Source of the DNA: Bacteroidota bacterium
GTDB lineage: Bacteria > Bacteroidota > Bacteroidia > B-17B0 > Aurantibacillaceae
Assembly: GCA_029237825.1 (NCBI GenBank)
Contig: JAQZBQ010000007.1
Coordinates: 186,001 to 250,000 of the forward strand
DNA length: 64,000 nucleotides
Direction: 5' to 3'
Translations under genes and position numbers: made by a program
Notes under the pieces: generated by a model
Databases searched by the model: none
Seen by the model: only the letters and a program-made list of their open reading frames with translations
What the model was told of the DNA's origin: nothing
In this document: positions 28,179 to 43,733 of the stretch, in pieces
How positions within the stretch are numbered: position 1 is the stretch's first letter
Layout of the letters: each line of letters begins with the position of its first letter

Positions 28179-28757
28179 GTGTTTTCATGTAAAAGAAATC
28201 ACACCAGTGTGCTGGTTAAAGTGTTGGATAACGAAACGAATACTCCGGTGAGTTTTGCTAAAGTTAATGTGGTTCGGAAAGGAAAAAAAGGCTGGCTGAC
28301 AGAAAAAGAAAGTATGTTAGTTAACGAATCCCTCACTAATACGTATGGTGAGGTGTTAGTAGATTTTAAATACGACAGGGGCAACACATACGCCTTATTT
28401 GTGTATCCTCCGAGTGGTTATTTTCAAACGGGGAATTACCACTATGTCGATCTCGAAAAAGGAAAAAACCAGGAAACCGTTTATCTCTACCAACAATCTT
28501 TTATCAAGTTGAATTTGATTTCAAATCAAGCGTCAGGTAAGGTTTTGGATATCAAAATAGATGAAGCAACGAGCGTTTATTACACCTATTATTCAAATTC
28601 CACCGCTGTTAACAAGATGGTCTTTTGTTCCGTAAACTCATCGGTTGGAAATAAATCGCTTACCTGGAGCGTCGATTCAGCCGGAACAAGAAATAAATAT
28701 GCGTCGCCTATTCAGTTAAAAGGACATGACACCGTTTACGCAACCATTCATTTTTAA
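28179..28757 (+). CDS. Probable lipoprotein of unknown function, start disrupted
   Basis: As read, a 192-residue protein starting at GTG 28179 (FSCKRNH). The early Cys, preceded by hydrophobic codons in the same frame back to a stop at 28146 (FFLLLGVFSC), is the expected lipobox. The body begins with a carboxypeptidase-regulatory or transthyretin-like beta-sandwich pattern (VLVKVLDNETNTPVSFAKVNVV, GEVLVDFKYDRGNTYALFVYPP), and the second half (YYSNSTAVNKMVFCSV) has no family I know. It lacks any enzymatic motif. Its stop shares TTAA with the stop of the convergent VOC gene. The start problem is treated under findings. Confidence 0.6.
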   Translation: MFSCKRNHTSVLVKVLDNETNTPVSFAKVNVVRKGKKGWLTEKESMLVNESLTNTYGEVLVDFKYDRGNTYALFVYPPSGYFQTGNYHYVDLEKGKNQETVYLYQQSFIKLNLISNQASGKVLDIKIDEATSVYYTYYSNSTAVNKMVFCSVNSSVGNKSLTWSVDSAGTRNKYASPIQLKGHDTVYATIHF

Positions 28758-29815
28758 TCTTTTACTCTACTAAACTTCAGCGCTTTTAAAATGAAGTTTG
28801 GTAAAGCTTTTTTTGGATCACGTTTACGAAGATCAAGGTACCAGCCAATTTTTTTCACAACCGGTAATTTCTTTGTCTCCACAAATTCAATCAATGTTCC
28901 GTCAGCGTCCTCAATATAGGTAAAATGGCCTGCGGCTTCTCCCATTTCAAAACCGGCGCCGCCGTCGACTGTAAAAGGGTGGCCGGCTTTTTTGCAAGCT
29001 TCTTCCAGGGCTTTCATGTTTTTTATATCAAAGCATAAGTGAATAAATCCACAATCTCCCCATAATCGGTTTTCAAATATTTTCCTCGGCGAGTAGTCAA
29101 ATGCCTGAATCAATTCAATTTCATTATCTCCTAAAAGTGGACCGAAACTACCTTCCCTTGGTTTGCTGTTTCTTAAAACAACCCGTCTGAATTTCTTTTG
29201 CGAACCTTCAACACCCTTCCAGTCACTGAAAATGCTAGTTGTGTCAGAAATAACGGTGTCGAATCCCAGAACAGTTTTATAAAGTCCAATTGATTTTTCA
29301 ATATCTTTCACACCGATAACCGCGCCTAAAACACCGCCCGTTGTAAAATCTTTCTTCTGGTACCACGACGATTTTTCTTCAATTATTTCATAAACATTTC
29401 CCCATAGGTCCTGAATGTAAAAATGGTTTCTTCCGTAGGGCGTTTGAGAAATTTCAGTAAAGAGCTTCGCTCCAAAATTTTTCAAGTGATCGTATGATTT
29501 TTTGATGTCATACGATTTAATTTTTCCGGCAAAAATGCCAAGATCGCCCAACTGCGGCGTAAATTCCGCTTTCTGTGCCGTTCGGCTTGTGTATTGCCAG
29601 ATTTCAAAACCACCACCACCGTTCAAACTAATAGCTAAAATGGCATGGCGCGCATGCGGCATATTAGCGGTATAGGGAAGCATCAGTTCGGCCATAGCAG
29701 CCTCTTCAAAAATTTTAATATCCGTGCCAAATGCTTTTCGGTACCATTTAAATGTTTCGTGAACGTTGGTATTCCCAACACCAAGTTGCTGTATGCCTGA
29801 AATGATGTAACTCAT
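28754..29815 (-). CDS. Two-domain VOC (glyoxalase/dioxygenase superfamily) protein
   Basis: A 353-residue cytosolic protein with two vicinal-oxygen-chelate modules: N-terminal (about 5-130; IQQLGVGNTNVHETFKWYRKAFG, FEIWQYTSR) and C-terminal (about 145-320; AVIGVKDIEKSIGLYKTVLGF, IHLCFDIKNMKALEEACKKAG, TYIEDADGTLIEFVETKK). The C-terminal His and Glu (IHLCFD, LIEFVE) could bind a metal. The layout recalls extradiol-type dioxygenases and HPPD-like enzymes, but the substrate is unknown. It may share a transcript with the GNAT gene, which ends 36 nt upstream. Confidence 0.75.
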   Translation of the reverse strand: MSYIISGIQQLGVGNTNVHETFKWYRKAFGTDIKIFEEAAMAELMLPYTANMPHARHAILAISLNGGGGFEIWQYTSRTAQKAEFTPQLGDLGIFAGKIKSYDIKKSYDHLKNFGAKLFTEISQTPYGRNHFYIQDLWGNVYEIIEEKSSWYQKKDFTTGGVLGAVIGVKDIEKSIGLYKTVLGFDTVISDTTSIFSDWKGVEGSQKKFRRVVLRNSKPREGSFGPLLGDNEIELIQAFDYSPRKIFENRLWGDCGFIHLCFDIKNMKALEEACKKAGHPFTVDGGAGFEMGEAAGHFTYIEDADGTLIEFVETKKLPVVKKIGWYLDLRKRDPKKALPNFILKALKFSRVKD

Positions 29816-29851
29816 GAAATGTAATTAAACCGTAAAATTAAGATTTATAAT

Positions 29852-30229
29852 TTATTGCCCAACGTATTTCATGACCACGTATGTTTCCGGAACCATTAGT
29901 TCGGATGAGCAGTAATTGAGTTTGTCAGCGATTTCGGGAGGGTATTGATCAACCGTTTGGAAGCCGAGTTTTGAAAAATATTCCGGTATAATGCATACCA
30001 GATAAATGGGTTGAGTAGCGATTTTAACCCGTGCCTCGACCAATGCTTTGGCAATACCGTTAAAGCGTTTTTTCTCAATAACACCAAGCGAGCAAAACTC
30101 GTCACACCCATAATGTTTTCTAATCCTTCCAAAGCCAACGATCTCATCCCCTTCTTTTGCTACTAAAAACTGGCTCATTTGAAGATCACGGTTATCCAAA
30201 TCATATTCAGAAACATACTGAACAATCAA
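29852..30229 (-). CDS. GNAT-family acetyltransferase, N-terminus disrupted
   Basis: As read from the TTG at 30229, 125 residues: FLVAKEGDEIVGFGRIRKH (beta-2 to beta-4), SLGVIEKKRFNGIAKALVEA (acetyl-CoA loop, a weak version of the usual R/QxxGxG/A) and YFSKLGFQTVD near the end. In the same frame upstream, ISIHNANEKDFKLIV (30269-30225) is the normal first strand of the fold, so the real protein starts further up. No ATG, GTG or earlier TTG exists there; adding one base to the seven-T run at 30265-30271 would join it to the ATG at 30282. Function unknown. Confidence 0.7.
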   Translation of the reverse strand: MIVQYVSEYDLDNRDLQMSQFLVAKEGDEIVGFGRIRKHYGCDEFCSLGVIEKKRFNGIAKALVEARVKIATQPIYLVCIIPEYFSKLGFQTVDQYPPEIADKLNYCSSELMVPETYVVMKYVGQ

Positions 30230-30397: not shown

Positions 30398-32086
30398 ATG
30401 CAAGACAAATACGACGTAGTAATAGCCGGTGGCGGTCTGGCAGGCCTTACCCTATCCATTCAATTAAAGCAAGCTAATCCTGATATTTCAATTTTGATTC
30501 TTGAAAGCAGGGACAAAGCAGCGGCCATCGCTGCTCACAAAGTTGGTGAATCGACGGTAGAACTGGCGACCCATTATTTCCGGGAGGTCCTCGGCTTAAA
30601 AGATTATTTAGAAGAGTTTGAACTGCCTAAGCATGGTTTGCGCTTTTTCTTTACTGACGAAAAAAAGGTTGAATTATCCAACAGGGTAGAGTTGGGTCCT
30701 CGGTTAAAACTCCCTGTTCCGAGTCATCAATTGGATAGGGGTACTTTTGAAAATTATCTGGAAAGACATACCAAATCGTTAGGGACAGACTTTTTGCTGG
30801 CGGCTCGTGCTAAGGATGTTGTGTTCGGTGATAACGGAGATTTGCACACTGTAGTTTATGCTCATGAGAGGCAGGATAAAATCGTTAGAGCGCGCTGGTT
30901 AGTGGATGCAACCAGTCGGATTAGTTTACTGAAAAAGAAACTGGGGTTTCAAAAAGAAGCGCCTCATAATGTAAATGCTGCATGGTTCAGGGTTAAAGGT
31001 GTTGTTGATATTGATGAATGGAGTGATAACAAAGAGTGGCAATCTTTTTTGGCGCCGAAGCTCCGCTACCTTAGTACAGTGCATTTTATGGACAAAGGAT
31101 ATTGGCTTTGGGTAATTCCGTTAGGTTCAAAAAACACAAGTATCGGAATTGTAGCCGACGAGGATATTCATCCCTTTGAAACAATAAATACATATGAAAA
31201 GGCTGTAGCCTGGATACATAAACATGAGCCGCAGGCGGCTAAATTTGTCTGCCCTAATAAAGAAGATATTTTGGATTTTAGAATCCTGAAGCACTTTGCG
31301 CACGACAGTAAGCGGATTTATTCAGCTGATCGATGGGCTGTTACAGGCGAAGCGGGTGTGTTTCTTGATCCATTTTACTCTCCCGGAAGTGATTTTATTT
31401 CATTGAATAATACATGGCTGAGTGATTTGATTCTTCGTGATTATAAAGGAGAAGATATTTCGGTACGTGCGCAGATATATGAGCAAACGCATTTGTCCTG
31501 GTTTGAAAGTTGGTTGCCAATATACCAGGATAAGTATAAACTAATGGGTAACACCCAGATTATGGTTTTCAAAATCTTCTGGGACTGGGCCATTTATTGG
31601 TCGGTTCCATGCTTGTTATTTACCAATAACGGTTTTACGGATTTGAAAGTACTGAAGGAATTATTTGTATCGGAGAAGAGCCTCGGCCGAAAGTTTGGCC
31701 GGCTAAATAAAGCCGTGCAGGATTTATTTCTGGAGTGGTTACCGTTTGAAAAAGCAATATTTGAGCAACGCTATATCGATCCTTTGGATTTGGATTACCT
31801 TAAAAGGTTTCAGCGAGGAATTGACGAGGTGCACGGAACAAGTGAGGTTGTTGGAAAGGTTTCTGATAATATGAATATCCTCGAGAATGTTGCCGCTGAA
31901 ATGTTCCGTTTAATAAGTAATCAGGTTAACAAAACACCATTGGATATAATAGTTGATCCTTATGTGATGACTTTATCGAAGCCATACGACGCCAGTGAAC
32001 ATTTAAATGGTTTAAACCCAGATGGTGTGATTGGAAATGACGTTGCCAAAATGTGGTTTTACCAGCCAACGACTGTAGCCATTTAA
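30398..32086 (+). CDS. Flavin-dependent halogenase-like FAD oxidoreductase
   Basis: A 562-residue enzyme of the tryptophan-halogenase fold. The FAD site GGGLAG (11-16) opens the protein. KVGESTVE (48-55) follows, and K78 in LPKHGLRF aligns by eye with the catalytic lysine of PrnA-type halogenases. The halogenase signature WLWVIP (236-241) matches WxWxIP. The second FAD motif is GEAGVFLDPFYSPGSD. These features suggest a halogenase on a free or carrier-bound substrate, but close relatives are hydroxylases. Product, halide and substrate are unknown. No flavin reductase, carrier protein or pigment cluster is adjacent; it is a single-gene unit ended by a strong terminator. Confidence 0.8.
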   Translation: MQDKYDVVIAGGGLAGLTLSIQLKQANPDISILILESRDKAAAIAAHKVGESTVELATHYFREVLGLKDYLEEFELPKHGLRFFFTDEKKVELSNRVELGPRLKLPVPSHQLDRGTFENYLERHTKSLGTDFLLAARAKDVVFGDNGDLHTVVYAHERQDKIVRARWLVDATSRISLLKKKLGFQKEAPHNVNAAWFRVKGVVDIDEWSDNKEWQSFLAPKLRYLSTVHFMDKGYWLWVIPLGSKNTSIGIVADEDIHPFETINTYEKAVAWIHKHEPQAAKFVCPNKEDILDFRILKHFAHDSKRIYSADRWAVTGEAGVFLDPFYSPGSDFISLNNTWLSDLILRDYKGEDISVRAQIYEQTHLSWFESWLPIYQDKYKLMGNTQIMVFKIFWDWAIYWSVPCLLFTNNGFTDLKVLKELFVSEKSLGRKFGRLNKAVQDLFLEWLPFEKAIFEQRYIDPLDLDYLKRFQRGIDEVHGTSEVVGKVSDNMNILENVAAEMFRLISNQVNKTPLDIIVDPYVMTLSKPYDASEHLNGLNPDGVIGNDVAKMWFYQPTTVAI

Positions 32087-32104: not shown

Positions 32105-32136
32105 AAAAACTCCTACTGAAACCAGTAGGAGTTTTT
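32105..32136. terminator. Bidirectional terminator between the halogenase gene and ctaD
   Basis: Perfect 14-bp stem AAAAACTCCTACTG (32105-32118) / CAGTAGGAGTTTTT (32123-32136), loop AAAC, with A/T runs at both ends. It ends the halogenase gene and, on the other strand, the 11.5-kb respiratory operon. Confidence 0.92.
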
Positions 32137-39088: not shown

Positions 39089-42000
39089 TTATGAATGGTG
39101 TTCTTCTTTGTGCTCTTCATCATGGCTTGTTCCTGTAGGACCCGCGTGTTGAACATGAGTATGAATCGCTTCTTCCTGATTTCTCACTTTAAGCAGGTAA
39201 GAAACGGTTGGTTTAACACCTACTTCTTCTAATAAGAAATAGTTTTTATCATCTTGTCTCCAGGTGTTTACTGCTGATTTTTCATCATTGATGTCGCCAA
39301 ACATAATAGCGTTTGTTGGACATGCTTGCTGACACGCAGTTTTGATAGAACCATCAACCACTGGCATTTTAGCTGCTTTTGCTACTAATTTACCAGCCTG
39401 TAAACGCTGAACACACATGGAGCATTTTTCCATGACACCACGTGAACGAACAACTACATCCGGGTTTAATACCATGCGGCCTAAATCCTGTTGCGCTGGG
39501 TTCACATCACTGAACATTTCATTTCCGTTATAATTGAACCAGTTAAAGCGACGAACTTTAAACGGACAGTTATTTGCACAATAACGGGTACCAATGCAAC
39601 GATTATAAGTCATCATGTTTAATCCTTCAGTACTGTGGCTTGTTGCTAAAACAGGACAAACCGTTTCGCAAGGAGCATGGTTACAGTGCTGACACATCAT
39701 CGGCTGGAAAGTCACTTTAGGATTTAAAGAAGGATTTTCCATATCCAGGTACATTTGTTTTGTACCAACGTGTTCTTCATGAGCTTTTTCTTTGTTCATG
39801 TCAGAAGAATAGTAACGATCGATACGCAACCAATGCATATCACGCGTCATCGCGATCTCATCTTTTCCAACAACTGCCACGTTATTTTCTGCAGTACAAG
39901 CAACAACGCAGGCAGCACAACCAATACATGAGTTCATATCAATGGTCATTCCCCATTTATGGTTCATCCGTGGATGAGCATCCCAAAGATCGATTTCTTC
40001 AACATGTTTTTTTCCACCACCATGCATTGGAAGCATAGCCGCAGGGTTCCAAACCTCTTTTTCTTTGGTTTTATATTCGTTTAAAGAAACTTCGCGTAAC
40101 AAGTATTCCTCACGACCCATAATGGTGTGATGAATTTGTGTGGCCGCAAATTTATGGTCTCCTGTAGCCTTGCTAACAGTAGCCGATAAACCTACATACT
40201 GGAATGTATCATTGTTTACTGTTACAAACGGGTAGGCATTTACTCCAACGCCAGTGGCTACTTTCATAGATTCTGCCGTACGGCCGTAACCCATAGCTAA
40301 GCCAATTGTACCTGCTGTTTGCCCTGGTTGAGGATAAACAGGAGCCTGAATGGTGATGCCATTTACAGTCAATTCAACGATAGAACCAATTATATCCTGG
40401 CGCTTCATCTCATTTAAACCAAGAGTTGCGACGTCAGCAGGATTCATTGTAATATAATTATCCCAGGTAACTTTTGAAATTGGATCAGGTAATTCCATTA
40501 ACCAAGGGTTATTACTTTGGTTACCATTTCCTAGTCCGATTTTTTCGTATACAACTAATTCAAATGAACCTCCTTTTGCGCCGGTTGCCATTGCTGCGGC
40601 TTTATTATAATCTGGTGCAGTTACGTTTGTCGCCGGTTCAGAAACAGGTTGTTTAGAAGCGGAAGAAGCTGCTGGAGCTTCGGTTTTTGCAGAATCTCCG
40701 ATTACTTCATTTACTATTGCTGCAACTCCGGCCATCAAAGGTTTCCCTGAAGAATCTTTTGCCATTGGAGCAACAGGCATATCTTTAATCACAGACACTT
40801 TAAGAACACCATCGTGTAATGTATGCGCCCAGAAAGAAGCGAAGTCGAGGTATTTTCCTTGTTGAGGAAATACGTGGTTATTCCAGTATCCTTGTAAATA
40901 GGTTAAATAATCAGTTTTGATGCCGGACCATTTTAAAAGGGAATCCTGTACCTGGCGTGTTCCTTCATAGCGAGGTGCTGCAAAAATCTGACGAATGGTA
41001 GGTTGTTGTAAAGAGTAATGCCCACGTTTTGGATTAGCATCACCCCATGATTCTAAGTAATTGTTATCCGGGCAAACAAAATCAGCCAGTTTAGACGTTT
41101 CATCTAATGCCTGGGAGAAAGAAACCTTTAACGCCGCTTTTGTATAAGCTGTTTCAAATTTTAAAGAAGCAGGTGCCGTGTAAACCGGATTACAGTTGTA
41201 AGTCATTAATACTCCAACTTTTCCTGCATTTAAATCCGAAACAAGATCAATAAAATCTTTATCATTTCCTTGTTTCAGGTTGTAATGCATGTCAACATCT
41301 ACTGTTTTACCATAGTTGTCAAGCATTTTATTGATGCCGTTTACCAGAGTCTGGCAACCTTCATCATTGAAACCACACACTACAATTGACTTTCCTTTAT
41401 TTTCTACTAATTGCTTAGCCGCTTTAGAAATGGCCTTAACCGCTTCAGCGTTTGAAATACCAGCTGAAGTTACTTTTGCATTTCCAATAGCACCCGCAAC
41501 TTCGTTATATAAAGTAGCAATCACCTTCCCGAATTCAGACGCCTTCACCATGTAACGTTCATCGGCGTTAGCCCCCGTTAACGATAAATTTGCTTCGAAA
41601 TGGTAGTGCTTACTCATTTCCAAATTTTCACGGCTTACCTTACGTGTTTTGCTGTATTGAGCAGCAAACTCGATAGGGTTTAACCATGTTCCAAGGAAAT
41701 CACAGGCAATACCAACTATGGTTTTTGCTTTAGAGAAATCATAAGATGAAACAACCGATTTTCCAAATACATTCTTATTTGCTTTGATTAAAGCGGAATA
41801 AGAAACCGCGTCGTAAGTTACATGTTTGGAGTTTGGGTATTTAGCAATAAATTCAGCAATAACCGCTCTTGTTGAAGGACTGATAATGGTTGAACTTAAA
41901 ATGACGTTGGTTCCAGCAGTTAATGACTTAGAAACGGCTTCGTCAACGTTTTTCCAGGTTGTAGGATTGCCTTTTGCCAACGGTCCGCTTAAACGTGCGC

Positions 42001-43666
42001 CGTCATATAAACTCAAAACAGAAGCCTGAACGCGTGCGCTTGTAGCGCCATGGCTAACTTTTGACAATTCGTTTCCTTCAATTTTAATTGGACGTCCTTC
42101 ACGGGTTTTAACTAAAACAGAAGCATAGTCATGTCCATCATAAAACGTAGAAGCATAGAAGTTCGCCACGCCTGGCGTTACTTCTTCGGGTTTAATAACG
42201 TAAGGAATTGACTTGTTTACAGGTGTTTCGCAGGCTGCCAAAGCAACGGCAGCAGTTGAAAAGCCCATTACTTTTAAGAAATCCCTACGGGTAGTACCTT
42301 TTGAGTTTGCATCATCACCAGTAAGGAAATCTTCCATTGGTAAGCTCTCTGCGAACTCATTGTTTTTGCTTTTTAAAAAGTCTTCGCTGTTGTTTAATTC
42401 AGGTAAACCTTTCCAGTATTTTTTCGACATAGTCATCTGTGATATTTCTTGTCCTTTGTATTTTTCTTTTAAAGCTTTGTGAAGGCGGTCATAGTACGCA
42501 TTACCTTCCATTGCTACTTCTGTTTTACGGTGACATTCAACACACCATTTCATGGTAAGCGGAGACTTTTGTTCAACAGTAGTCATCTTCTTAACATCGC
42601 CATGGCAGGTTGCACAATCCTGTTTACCTACTACTACGTGTTGCTGGTGGTTAAAATAAACGTGATCAGGAAGTGTGTGTACTTTGATCCATTTAATTGG
42701 ATTTTCATTACCGGTGTAGTTGCCGGATTTAGCATCAAACCCTGCTGCTGCATAGATTTTAGAAATTTCTTTTTCGCCATGTTCCGGGCCTGTGCTGATA
42801 CCTTTATGACAATTCATACACACGTTAACTGTTGGGATTCCAGCATGACGCGATTTTTCAACAGAATTGTGGCAGTACTGACAAGCAATTTCATTATCGC
42901 CAGCGTGTAATTTATGAGAGAATTTTATTGGCTGTTCCGGGTGGTATCCTTTTTGGGTTTCCCACTCATAATAAACGCCAAGGTCATAACATGCGTCCCA
43001 ACAGGATTTCATCCCAATGAACACAAACAGGATAACAAATACACCCACTAATCGACGGTGACCGCTAATCCAGTCTTTAACTTCTTGTCCGAAAGTAGTT
43101 TCAGGAACTTCATCCTTTCCTACTTTACGGTTGTATGAATTCTCAAGGGCGTGACGTACACTTCTTAATGCGCCAATAATTATCGCGATGATTACAATAG
43201 CACCTAACAATAAATATAACGGATCAATTCCACCTTTTTCTTCAACAACTTCAGCTCCTGAGGTTGCAGGGCCCTTAGCTACATCAGTTTTAGGCGCAGG
43301 AGGATTTTTAATATAAGCAATGATCGCTTTTACCTCATCATCTGATAAAAACTCAAATTCGCTCATGTTTGCACCGCTGAACTTTGCATCAATACTTTTT
43401 GCATAGGCATCGCCGCTTGCTTTTACCTTTGTAGCGTTTTTGATCCAGTGTAATAACCATTCGTCTGCTGGTTTTGGAACACGATCTGCAACACCTGCAA
43501 GACCCGGACCGGTTAATGCGCCATCGTCTAATTTGTGACAAACCGCGCAATTCGACTTAAATAATTTAGCACCATCCTGGGCTTTCAGTCCAAATGAGAA
43601 AGCAAAAAACAGGAAAACCGCGCCAAATAAAGATTTTAAAGAGAAATGAGACATATTATTTTGCAT
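39089..43666 (-). CDS. actAB: ActA-ActB fusion: alternative complex III cytochrome c plus molybdopterin-like/Fe-S subunit
   Basis: One uninterrupted frame of about 1525 residues where two genes are usual. Start at ATG 43666 is chosen (43654 also possible; 43717 adds a non-signal-like extension). Counting from 43717: signal peptide, class-I haem site CAVCH (57-61), membrane helices (168-184 and 223-236), then haem sites CQYCH (279), CMNCH (300), CATCH (368) and CVECH (392). At residues 428-430 (42436-42430) is an in-frame MTMSKKYWKG, the normal start of ActB. ActB follows with a Tat-like RRDFLKVMGFSTAA and CE lipobox, a molybdopterin-like domain without clear cofactor ligands, and a ferredoxin-like domain with many Cys (CIGCAACVVAC, CQHCNHAPC, CIGTRYCANNC, CSMCVQ). 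The usual fifth C-terminal haem site of ActA was not seen before the junction. Confidence 0.93.
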   Translation of the reverse strand: MQNNMSHFSLKSLFGAVFLFFAFSFGLKAQDGAKLFKSNCAVCHKLDDGALTGPGLAGVADRVPKPADEWLLHWIKNATKVKASGDAYAKSIDAKFSGANMSEFEFLSDDEVKAIIAYIKNPPAPKTDVAKGPATSGAEVVEEKGGIDPLYLLLGAIVIIAIIIGALRSVRHALENSYNRKVGKDEVPETTFGQEVKDWISGHRRLVGVFVILFVFIGMKSCWDACYDLGVYYEWETQKGYHPEQPIKFSHKLHAGDNEIACQYCHNSVEKSRHAGIPTVNVCMNCHKGISTGPEHGEKEISKIYAAAGFDAKSGNYTGNENPIKWIKVHTLPDHVYFNHQQHVVVGKQDCATCHGDVKKMTTVEQKSPLTMKWCVECHRKTEVAMEGNAYYDRLHKALKEKYKGQEISQMTMSKKYWKGLPELNNSEDFLKSKNNEFAESLPMEDFLTGDDANSKGTTRRDFLKVMGFSTAAVALAACETPVNKSIPYVIKPEEVTPGVANFYASTFYDGHDYASVLVKTREGRPIKIEGNELSKVSHGATSARVQASVLSLYDGARLSGPLAKGNPTTWKNVDEAVSKSLTAGTNVILSSTIISPSTRAVIAEFIAKYPNSKHVTYDAVSYSALIKANKNVFGKSVVSSYDFSKAKTIVGIACDFLGTWLNPIEFAAQYSKTRKVSRENLEMSKHYHFEANLSLTGANADERYMVKASEFGKVIATLYNEVAGAIGNAKVTSAGISNAEAVKAISKAAKQLVENKGKSIVVCGFNDEGCQTLVNGINKMLDNYGKTVDVDMHYNLKQGNDKDFIDLVSDLNAGKVGVLMTYNCNPVYTAPASLKFETAYTKAALKVSFSQALDETSKLADFVCPDNNYLESWGDANPKRGHYSLQQPTIRQIFAAPRYEGTRQVQDSLLKWSGIKTDYLTYLQGYWNNHVFPQQGKYLDFASFWAHTLHDGVLKVSVIKDMPVAPMAKDSSGKPLMAGVAAIVNEVIGDSAKTEAPAASSASKQPVSEPATNVTAPDYNKAAAMATGAKGGSFELVVYEKIGLGNGNQSNNPWLMELPDPISKVTWDNYITMNPADVATLGLNEMKRQDIIGSIVELTVNGITIQAPVYPQPGQTAGTIGLAMGYGRTAESMKVATGVGVNAYPFVTVNNDTFQYVGLSATVSKATGDHKFAATQIHHTIMGREEYLLREVSLNEYKTKEKEVWNPAAMLPMHGGGKKHVEEIDLWDAHPRMNHKWGMTIDMNSCIGCAACVVACTAENNVAVVGKDEIAMTRDMHWLRIDRYYSSDMNKEKAHEEHVGTKQMYLDMENPSLNPKVTFQPMMCQHCNHAPCETVCPVLATSHSTEGLNMMTYNRCIGTRYCANNCPFKVRRFNWFNYNGNEMFSDVNPAQQDLGRMVLNPDVVVRSRGVMEKCSMCVQRLQAGKLVAKAAKMPVVDGSIKTACQQACPTNAIMFGDINDEKSAVNTWRQDDKNYFLLEEVGVKPTVSYLLKVRNQEEAIHTHVQHAGPTGTSHDEEHKEEHHS

Positions 43667-43733
43667 AGAATTATATCTAATTTTGTGGGTATTGTGGCAA
43701 TTTAATGACATTATCATGACAAAAAATTTCCGA

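Follow-up and report, generated by a model that had tools for sequence, protein, structure and literature searches.

A lone gene in a Bacteroidota genome encodes a member of the flavin-dependent-halogenase superfamily that probably halogenates flexirubin, or a precursor of it, as a tailoring enzyme of the pathway. Flexirubin is an orange pigment in which an aryl polyene and a dialkylresorcinol are joined as an ester. The tie to this pigment is supported by gene neighbourhoods in relatives, by co-occurrence across genomes, and by flexirubin genes in the organism's own genome. From the comparisons below we infer that the reaction is likely halogenation, and the ring and the timing are proposed in the same way.

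The gene, its motifs and its surroundings

The window (the whole 64,000-nucleotide stretch analysed) contains the following features of the gene.

30398..32086, + strand: open reading frame, flavin-dependent-halogenase superfamily, 'SPG' clade; 562 aa, ATG start
30428..30445, + strand: GGGLAG, residues 11-16, FAD-binding GxGxxG; GGGLAG in 52/53 aligned members, GGGLAA in 1/53
30629..30631, + strand: codon of K78 in PKHGLRF (LPKHGLRF); K78 and G80 invariant, 53/53
31103..31120, + strand: WLWVIP, residues 236-241, halogenase motif WxWxIP; 52/53, with WLLVIP in L044
31361..31387, + strand: F322-LD-P325-FY-S328-P329-G330, third halogenase motif FxxPxxSxG; the halide-loop position is occupied by proline
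31520..32083, + strand: C-terminal helical region, about residues 375-562, from the secondary structure of the model; past the PltA-matched part
32105..32136, no strand: intrinsic terminator hairpin between the halogenase-like gene and a convergent gene for cytochrome oxidase subunit I; -19.8 kcal/mol, z -7.6

Conservation was counted in an alignment of 53 proteins: the window protein and 52 full or nearly full-length copies from the 55 loci, all with Bacteroidota-type titles, found by a search of genome contigs; L050, L052, L077, and L078 were left out as truncated. The 562-aa frame matches the Pfam model Trp_halogenase at 44.1 bits (cut-off 21). Purifying selection on the gene is strong, with pN 0.065 and pS 0.851 against the nearest relative (L024), and pN 0.065-0.130 and pS 0.81-0.89 against seven relatives; pN and pS are reported instead of dN/dS because synonymous sites are saturated. 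Near-invariant motifs in 53 members, together with this selection, amount to more than chance resemblance.

The initial annotation called the halogenase marks intact. This is so for GGGLAG, K78 in LPKHGLRF, and WLWVIP, but the halide loop, which reads DPFYSPGSD, had been overlooked. FxxPxxSxG is described as a motif of flavin-dependent halogenases (PMC12645471, in part). F322, S328, P329, and G330 are found in 53/53 members and P325 in 52/53 (alanine in L068), so that proline separates S328 from G330 throughout the alignment. The same proline occurs in homologues from Janthinobacterium and Gloeothece and in extra copies from two relatives (G033 and G035); in the readable segments of PltA, Mpy16, ChlB4, Bmp2, FasV, CtcP, and CmlS its place is taken by S, T, R, Y, or Q. 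In RebH the halide is bound by the backbone NH of T359 and G360, the two residues after the loop serine (PMC5945002, in part), and P329 corresponds to T359 by motif alignment alone. Since proline at 329 has no such NH to offer, the enzyme must either bind halide differently or have lost the ability. Loss of tunnel residues had been named as evidence against a halogenase; K78, WxWxIP, and FxxPxxSxG are all kept, but P329 replaces a position that binds halide in RebH. The spacing of K78 in K-x-G is the same as in PltA, 3NIX, FasV, and Bmp2.

The gene was also credited with its own terminator, and a strong hairpin does lie directly 3' of it, but between convergent genes, both of which it may serve. 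Its neighbours in the window are SUF, glyoxalase, GNAT, and respiratory genes. None of the neighbouring ORFs encodes a reductase or carrier protein, as previously claimed, or a polyketide synthase, and the window ORFs around the gene include no flx/dar cluster gene. In 11 same-genus loci (L024-L033 and L050) the gene is solitary, has no DAR or polyene marker nearby, and mostly lies between GNAT/glyoxalase/SUF genes and varied right-hand genes.

In the window the glyoxalase-like and GNAT genes are at 28754-30229 on the - strand, left of the halogenase-like gene. Including the window, the left-hand GNAT is kept in 10 and the glyoxalase in 8 same-genus loci. A functional tie to this pair was considered and dropped; the pair is missing beside the gene in loci that carry flexirubin genes and therefore looks like local synteny. 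Elsewhere in the window (39089-43717, - strand) a single 1542-aa frame matches cytochrome c, multihaem cytochrome c7, and 4Fe-4S ferredoxin models and adjoins quinol-oxidase-like genes; presumably it represents fused subunits of alternative complex III.

Relation to known halogenases

The window protein is a member of the flavin-dependent-halogenase superfamily. Searched against the PDB as a single sequence, it matched 16 distinct sequences at E<=0.01, and a family profile matched 19 at E<=0.001; all in both searches are halogenases except 3NIX, and no hydroxylase was found at E<=0.001 in the profile search. These matches to halogenases stop at residue 372-378 of 562. No NCBIfam model exceeds its cut-off for the protein; the best match is a geranylgeranyl-reductase family (64.9, cut-off 158.8). 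The AlphaFold model has a mean pLDDT of 88.8. Among its best 50 Foldseek matches, rows 1-45 are halogenases or 3NIX, headed by PltM (E 3.1e-22), and aromatic hydroxylases start at row 46 (E 1.2e-16). VIA-align hardly tells the two groups apart, with Z 27.9 for Bmp2 and PltM and 26.6 for the aromatic hydroxylase 2-hydroxybiphenyl 3-monooxygenase.

PltM (6BZA/6BZQ) is the closest in fold, as the best Foldseek match and the tied best VIA-align match (rmsd 3.0, 432 aligned residues); it shares with the window enzyme a long helical C-terminal region and a catalytic lysine, and its substrates are electron-rich phenols (PMC6424973, in part). In sequence, however, PltM is only 16-17% identical, gives no significant match in the single-sequence search, and matches weakly in the profile search (E 1.5e-6). 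The best sequence relatives in the PDB are PltA, Mpy16, ChlB4, and Bmp2 (PltA at E 2.5e-17 in the single-sequence and 2e-24 in the profile search), which have the same motifs and K-x-G spacing but differ in a loop that reads SSG or SYG instead of SPG, lack the long C-terminal part, and belong to a separate branch of the tree.

The tree has 29 rows, including 16 SPG proteins, and is rooted on a distant FAD oxidase-like protein from the same genome (on C32) that is cut at the edge of its region; aromatic hydroxylases are not among the rows. A branch supported at 99/97 sets all 16 SPG proteins apart from PltA, Bmp2, CmlS, FasV, CtcP, and the 3NIX family. The root is unsure because of several long branches and the single distant outgroup. 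Phylogeny against halogenases and hydroxylases had been proposed as a check on the annotation: in this tree the SPG family lies apart from the five characterised halogenases and the 3NIX family, and it is not shown to belong to a hydroxylase clade. An unassigned protein from a Methylorubrum plasmid sits near the SPG side.

Association with flexirubin genes

The flexirubin clusters described for Chitinophaga pinensis and Flavobacterium johnsoniae comprise FlxA (TAL), KR, KS, ACP, acyltransferase, and DarA/DarB genes. Such genes stand beside SPG family members in related loci and are dispersed in the genome of the window. There, FlxA (819.5 bits, NCBIfam cut-off 700) heads a group on contig C33 that by similarity encodes a KR, KS, ACP, and lipid-A-type acyltransferase; DarB (604.8 bits, cut-off 550) is followed on C26 by genes that are DarG-like and DarH-like by similarity; and a DarA-like gene lies 2.4 kb from the end of contig C22. 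Counting the window gene, the pieces in this genome number at least five, all apart from one another. The earlier statement that there is no pigment cluster is thus true of the neighbourhood but fails at the genome level, since FlxA, DarB, DarG/DarH, and the DarA-like gene are on other contigs. One flavin-reductase-family protein is encoded on C8.

Beyond the same-genus loci, marker genes were counted within 8 kb of the gene in 43 loci (L034-L077 without L050), from genomes recruited with the query's own peptides, so that the set leans towards close relatives. DAR-type genes (DarA/DarB/DarG/DarH) are present in 25/43 loci and any marker in 28/43: DAR-type and polyene-type together in 13, DAR-type alone in 12, polyene-type alone in 3 (one of them, L064, by virtue of a single reductase, and another, L052, being truncated), and neither in 15. 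The labels were checked at L041, where DarB, FlxA, DarG, and DarH reach NCBIfam curated cut-offs; the DarA-like protein, which matches no NCBIfam or Pfam model, is named from its position before DarB. The gene is found within the flexirubin cluster in lineages whose copies are 55-76% identical, and gene order in the loci resembles that listed for the dar cluster of Azoarcus (PMC3949708, in part). Where the pathway is split, the gene accompanies the Dar half. At L071 it lies beside DarA, DarB, DarH, and DarG, with FlxA on another contig; in G027 it lies beside DarB, DarG-like, DarH-like, and ABC transporter genes, with FlxA and a DarA-like gene elsewhere; and in G033 beside DarH-like, DarG-like, ABC transporter, KS, and ACP genes, with FlxA and DarB elsewhere.

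Several further features of these loci were recorded. A DUF1702 protein is encoded near the halogenase-like gene, usually directly behind it, in 17/43 loci (L036, L042-L044, L048, L049, L051, L056, L057, L059, L064-L068, L070, and L073). Tandem copies of the gene occur at L051 and L066, and G033 has a second, diverged copy (L099, 41%) adjoining a carrier-protein-like ORF. Two SPG homologues are on plasmids. The homologue from Janthinobacterium lividum (L102, NZ_CP139977.1; 41% identity) adjoins genes for a type I polyketide synthase, an alpha/beta hydrolase, and a phosphopantetheinyl transferase. That from Gloeothece verrucosa (L103, 35% identity), annotated as tryptophan 7-halogenase, adjoins hpaB and lies near a fatty acid desaturase gene, with ribF in the same stretch.

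Co-occurrence was counted in 41 genomes, the organism's own and 40 relatives, with DarB scored at E<=1e-90. A full-length copy of the gene is present in 16/41, DarB in 21/41, a DarA-like gene in 20/41 (excluding a weak, broken match in G015), and a flexirubin-type TAL of at least 47% identity in 20/41 (partial in G019). All 16 carriers of the gene have DarB, and 15 have DarB, the DarA-like gene, and TAL. The table of gene against DarB (16/0/5/20) gives a Fisher p of 2e-7, ignoring kinship; the carrier genomes are related, and the counts are therefore not independent. The exception is G035, in which neither FlxA nor DarA accompanies the gene and the only DarB-like frame is one of 618 aa; its copy of the gene is followed by KR, dehydratase, ACP, two KS, and DUF1702 genes. 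All four same-genus genomes without Dar genes (G009, G010, G011, and G015) also lack the halogenase-like gene. Every one of the 43 genomes that supplied L034-L077 has DarB (partial in G296), and 41 have a flexirubin-type TAL of at least 50% identity, some partial; G296 and G298 have HutH-like matches alone.

The converse does not hold. DarB occurs without the gene in 5 of the 21 relatives with DarB (G004, G006, G013, G018, and G032). In a phylum sample of 247 genomes the gene (E<=1e-40) is present in the organism's own genome only, and DarB in 19, of which 18 are among the 246 other genomes. A core step of flexirubin synthesis was therefore rejected, the gene being missing from these 5/21 relatives and from 18/19 DarB genomes of the phylum sample. 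An optional gene among DarB genomes fits a tailoring step, for example the variable chlorination of flexirubin; chlorination at the polyene ring of flexirubins varies (PMC3992019, in part).

Proposed reaction, alternatives and significance

In the reaction we favour, FADH2 supplied by a general flavin reductase would react with O2, and the peroxyflavin would yield hypohalous acid at the flavin, which would be relayed to K78. The K78 stage would lead to halogenation of a phenolic ring of flexirubin or its precursor. This ring could be that of the dialkylresorcinol half, which gene linkage slightly favours, or the 4-hydroxyphenyl ring at the end of the polyene, for which chlorination is reported; linkage to Dar genes points to the resorcinol half, whereas the published chlorination is that of the polyene ring. 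PltM, the best fold match, iodinates drugs that bear a resorcinol and is inactivated by the mutation K87A (PMC6424973, in part). In this genome the pathway is unclustered, divided among the FlxA/KR/KS/ACP/acyltransferase group, the DarB-DarG-DarH group, the DarA-like gene, and the lone enzyme. Of the substrates suggested in the initial annotation, an endogenous pigment made elsewhere is supported, with flexirubin as that pigment, and a free metabolite is not.

Several observations count against flexirubin halogenation: the invariant P329, a place in the tree apart from the five known halogenases, the near-tie with hydroxylases in VIA-align, the absence of any NCBIfam match above cut-off, the 15/43 and 11 same-genus loci without markers, the presence of the gene in G035 without FlxA or DarA, and the plasmid relatives in non-Dar settings.

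A second superfamily member encoded in the same genome might be the flexirubin halogenase, with the window enzyme catalysing a different, second step; this is possible but doubtful. This 414-aa orthologue of 3NIX (a structural-genomics flavoprotein from Cytophaga hutchinsonii) is encoded alone on C14 (21749-22987; L094:9750-10988). It is much closer than the window enzyme to CmlS, FasV, Bmp2, and PltA (E 8e-45 to 2e-41), retains an SSG halide loop, and tracks the flexirubin genes, being present in 20/41 relatives, exactly those with a DarA-like gene; at L106 and L105 it lies next to FlxA or close by. It is also found, however, in 17/19 DarB genomes of the phylum sample (and one genome without DarB), and a gene present in nearly all sampled DarB genomes fits a core step better than variable chlorination. 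The paralogue appears to be a core enzyme of the flexirubin pathway, and its halogenase halide loop is intact. The 3NIX family shares its superfamily and co-occurrence with flexirubin genes with the window enzyme, but differs in length (about 414 aa), SSG loop, core distribution, and sequence (26% identity).

The main rival to halogenation is hydroxylation. The window enzyme would then be a flavin monooxygenase of the flexirubin pathway that has lost halide binding and hydroxylates or oxidises the dialkylresorcinol or the aryl ring, which is rather unlikely. The proline in the halide loop of every member, the separate clade in the 29-row tree, the hydroxylases close behind in VIA-align, and the presence of the known non-halogenating geranylgeranyl reductase, LodB, and QhpG among the weak NCBIfam matches all favour this reading. 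Retention of K78 in 53/53 and of WxWxIP in 52/53 members speaks against it, as WxWxIP has been proposed to protect the substrate site against hydroxylation (PMC10696468, in part), and so does the lack of hydroxylases at E<=0.001 in the family-profile PDB search.

A halogenase-type enzyme that acts on a free metabolite and is unrelated to flexirubin, co-occurring with it through shared ancestry, is very improbable: the solitary gene in the window's genus, the 15/43 other loci without a marker, the kinship of the carrier genomes, and the relatives outside the phylum, which have type I PKS or hpaB instead of Dar genes beside them, would accord with it, but DarB is present in all 16 carriers among the 41 relatives and in 43/43 further carriers, the gene is in-cluster in lineages at 55-76% identity, and it is missing from the four same-genus genomes without Dar genes. 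Co-occurrence and linkage likewise led to rejection of a pathway-less stand-alone halogenase as the main reading. Action on a carrier-bound pyrrole, as by PltA, is unsupported; PltA is the first sequence match, and the top fold match is the free-phenol enzyme PltM.

Knowledge of flexirubin chlorination goes back to Achenbach and colleagues (cited in PMC3992019, in part). Reichenbachiella agariperforans, whose strain DSM 26134 carries the gene beside DarA/DarB (L071), is listed as flexirubin-positive, with arylpolyene and resorcinol regions (PMC10752948, in part). A halogenase is listed in the literature for a xanthomonadin-type cluster of Azoarcus, and the main text of the Chitinophaga pinensis cluster paper names no halogenase, FAD protein, or oxidoreductase. 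Among the openly licensed papers searched there was no report of a halogenase tied to a Bacteroidota flexirubin cluster, nor of chlorinated flexirubin, chloroflexirubin, or halogenated dialkylresorcinol in Bacteroidota. Other background includes the zobelliphols of Zobellia and a paper reportedly entitled '5-chloroflexirubin'. The superfamily and the pathway are already known; judged by the openly licensed literature, the link between them and the SPG halide loop appear to be new.

A bolder reading, which we consider improbable, is that the SPG proteins form a branch of flavin-dependent halogenases that has gone unrecognised and in which the halide site is rewired, and that the Bacteroidota members of this branch halogenate the dialkylresorcinol half of flexirubin or free dialkylresorcinol. 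Halogenation of that half, if true, would give a type of pigment or signal molecule without report in the openly licensed literature searched. For flexirubin halogenation in general, the outcome is a concrete candidate enzyme for pigments that serve as markers in Bacteroidota chemotaxonomy, together with a cultured flexirubin-positive strain suited to testing it. The SPG loop makes it possible to ask if the third halogenase motif can accommodate proline where halide binds, and the window gene illustrates how a gene with no pathway partners around it can still be part of a pathway dispersed through the genome.
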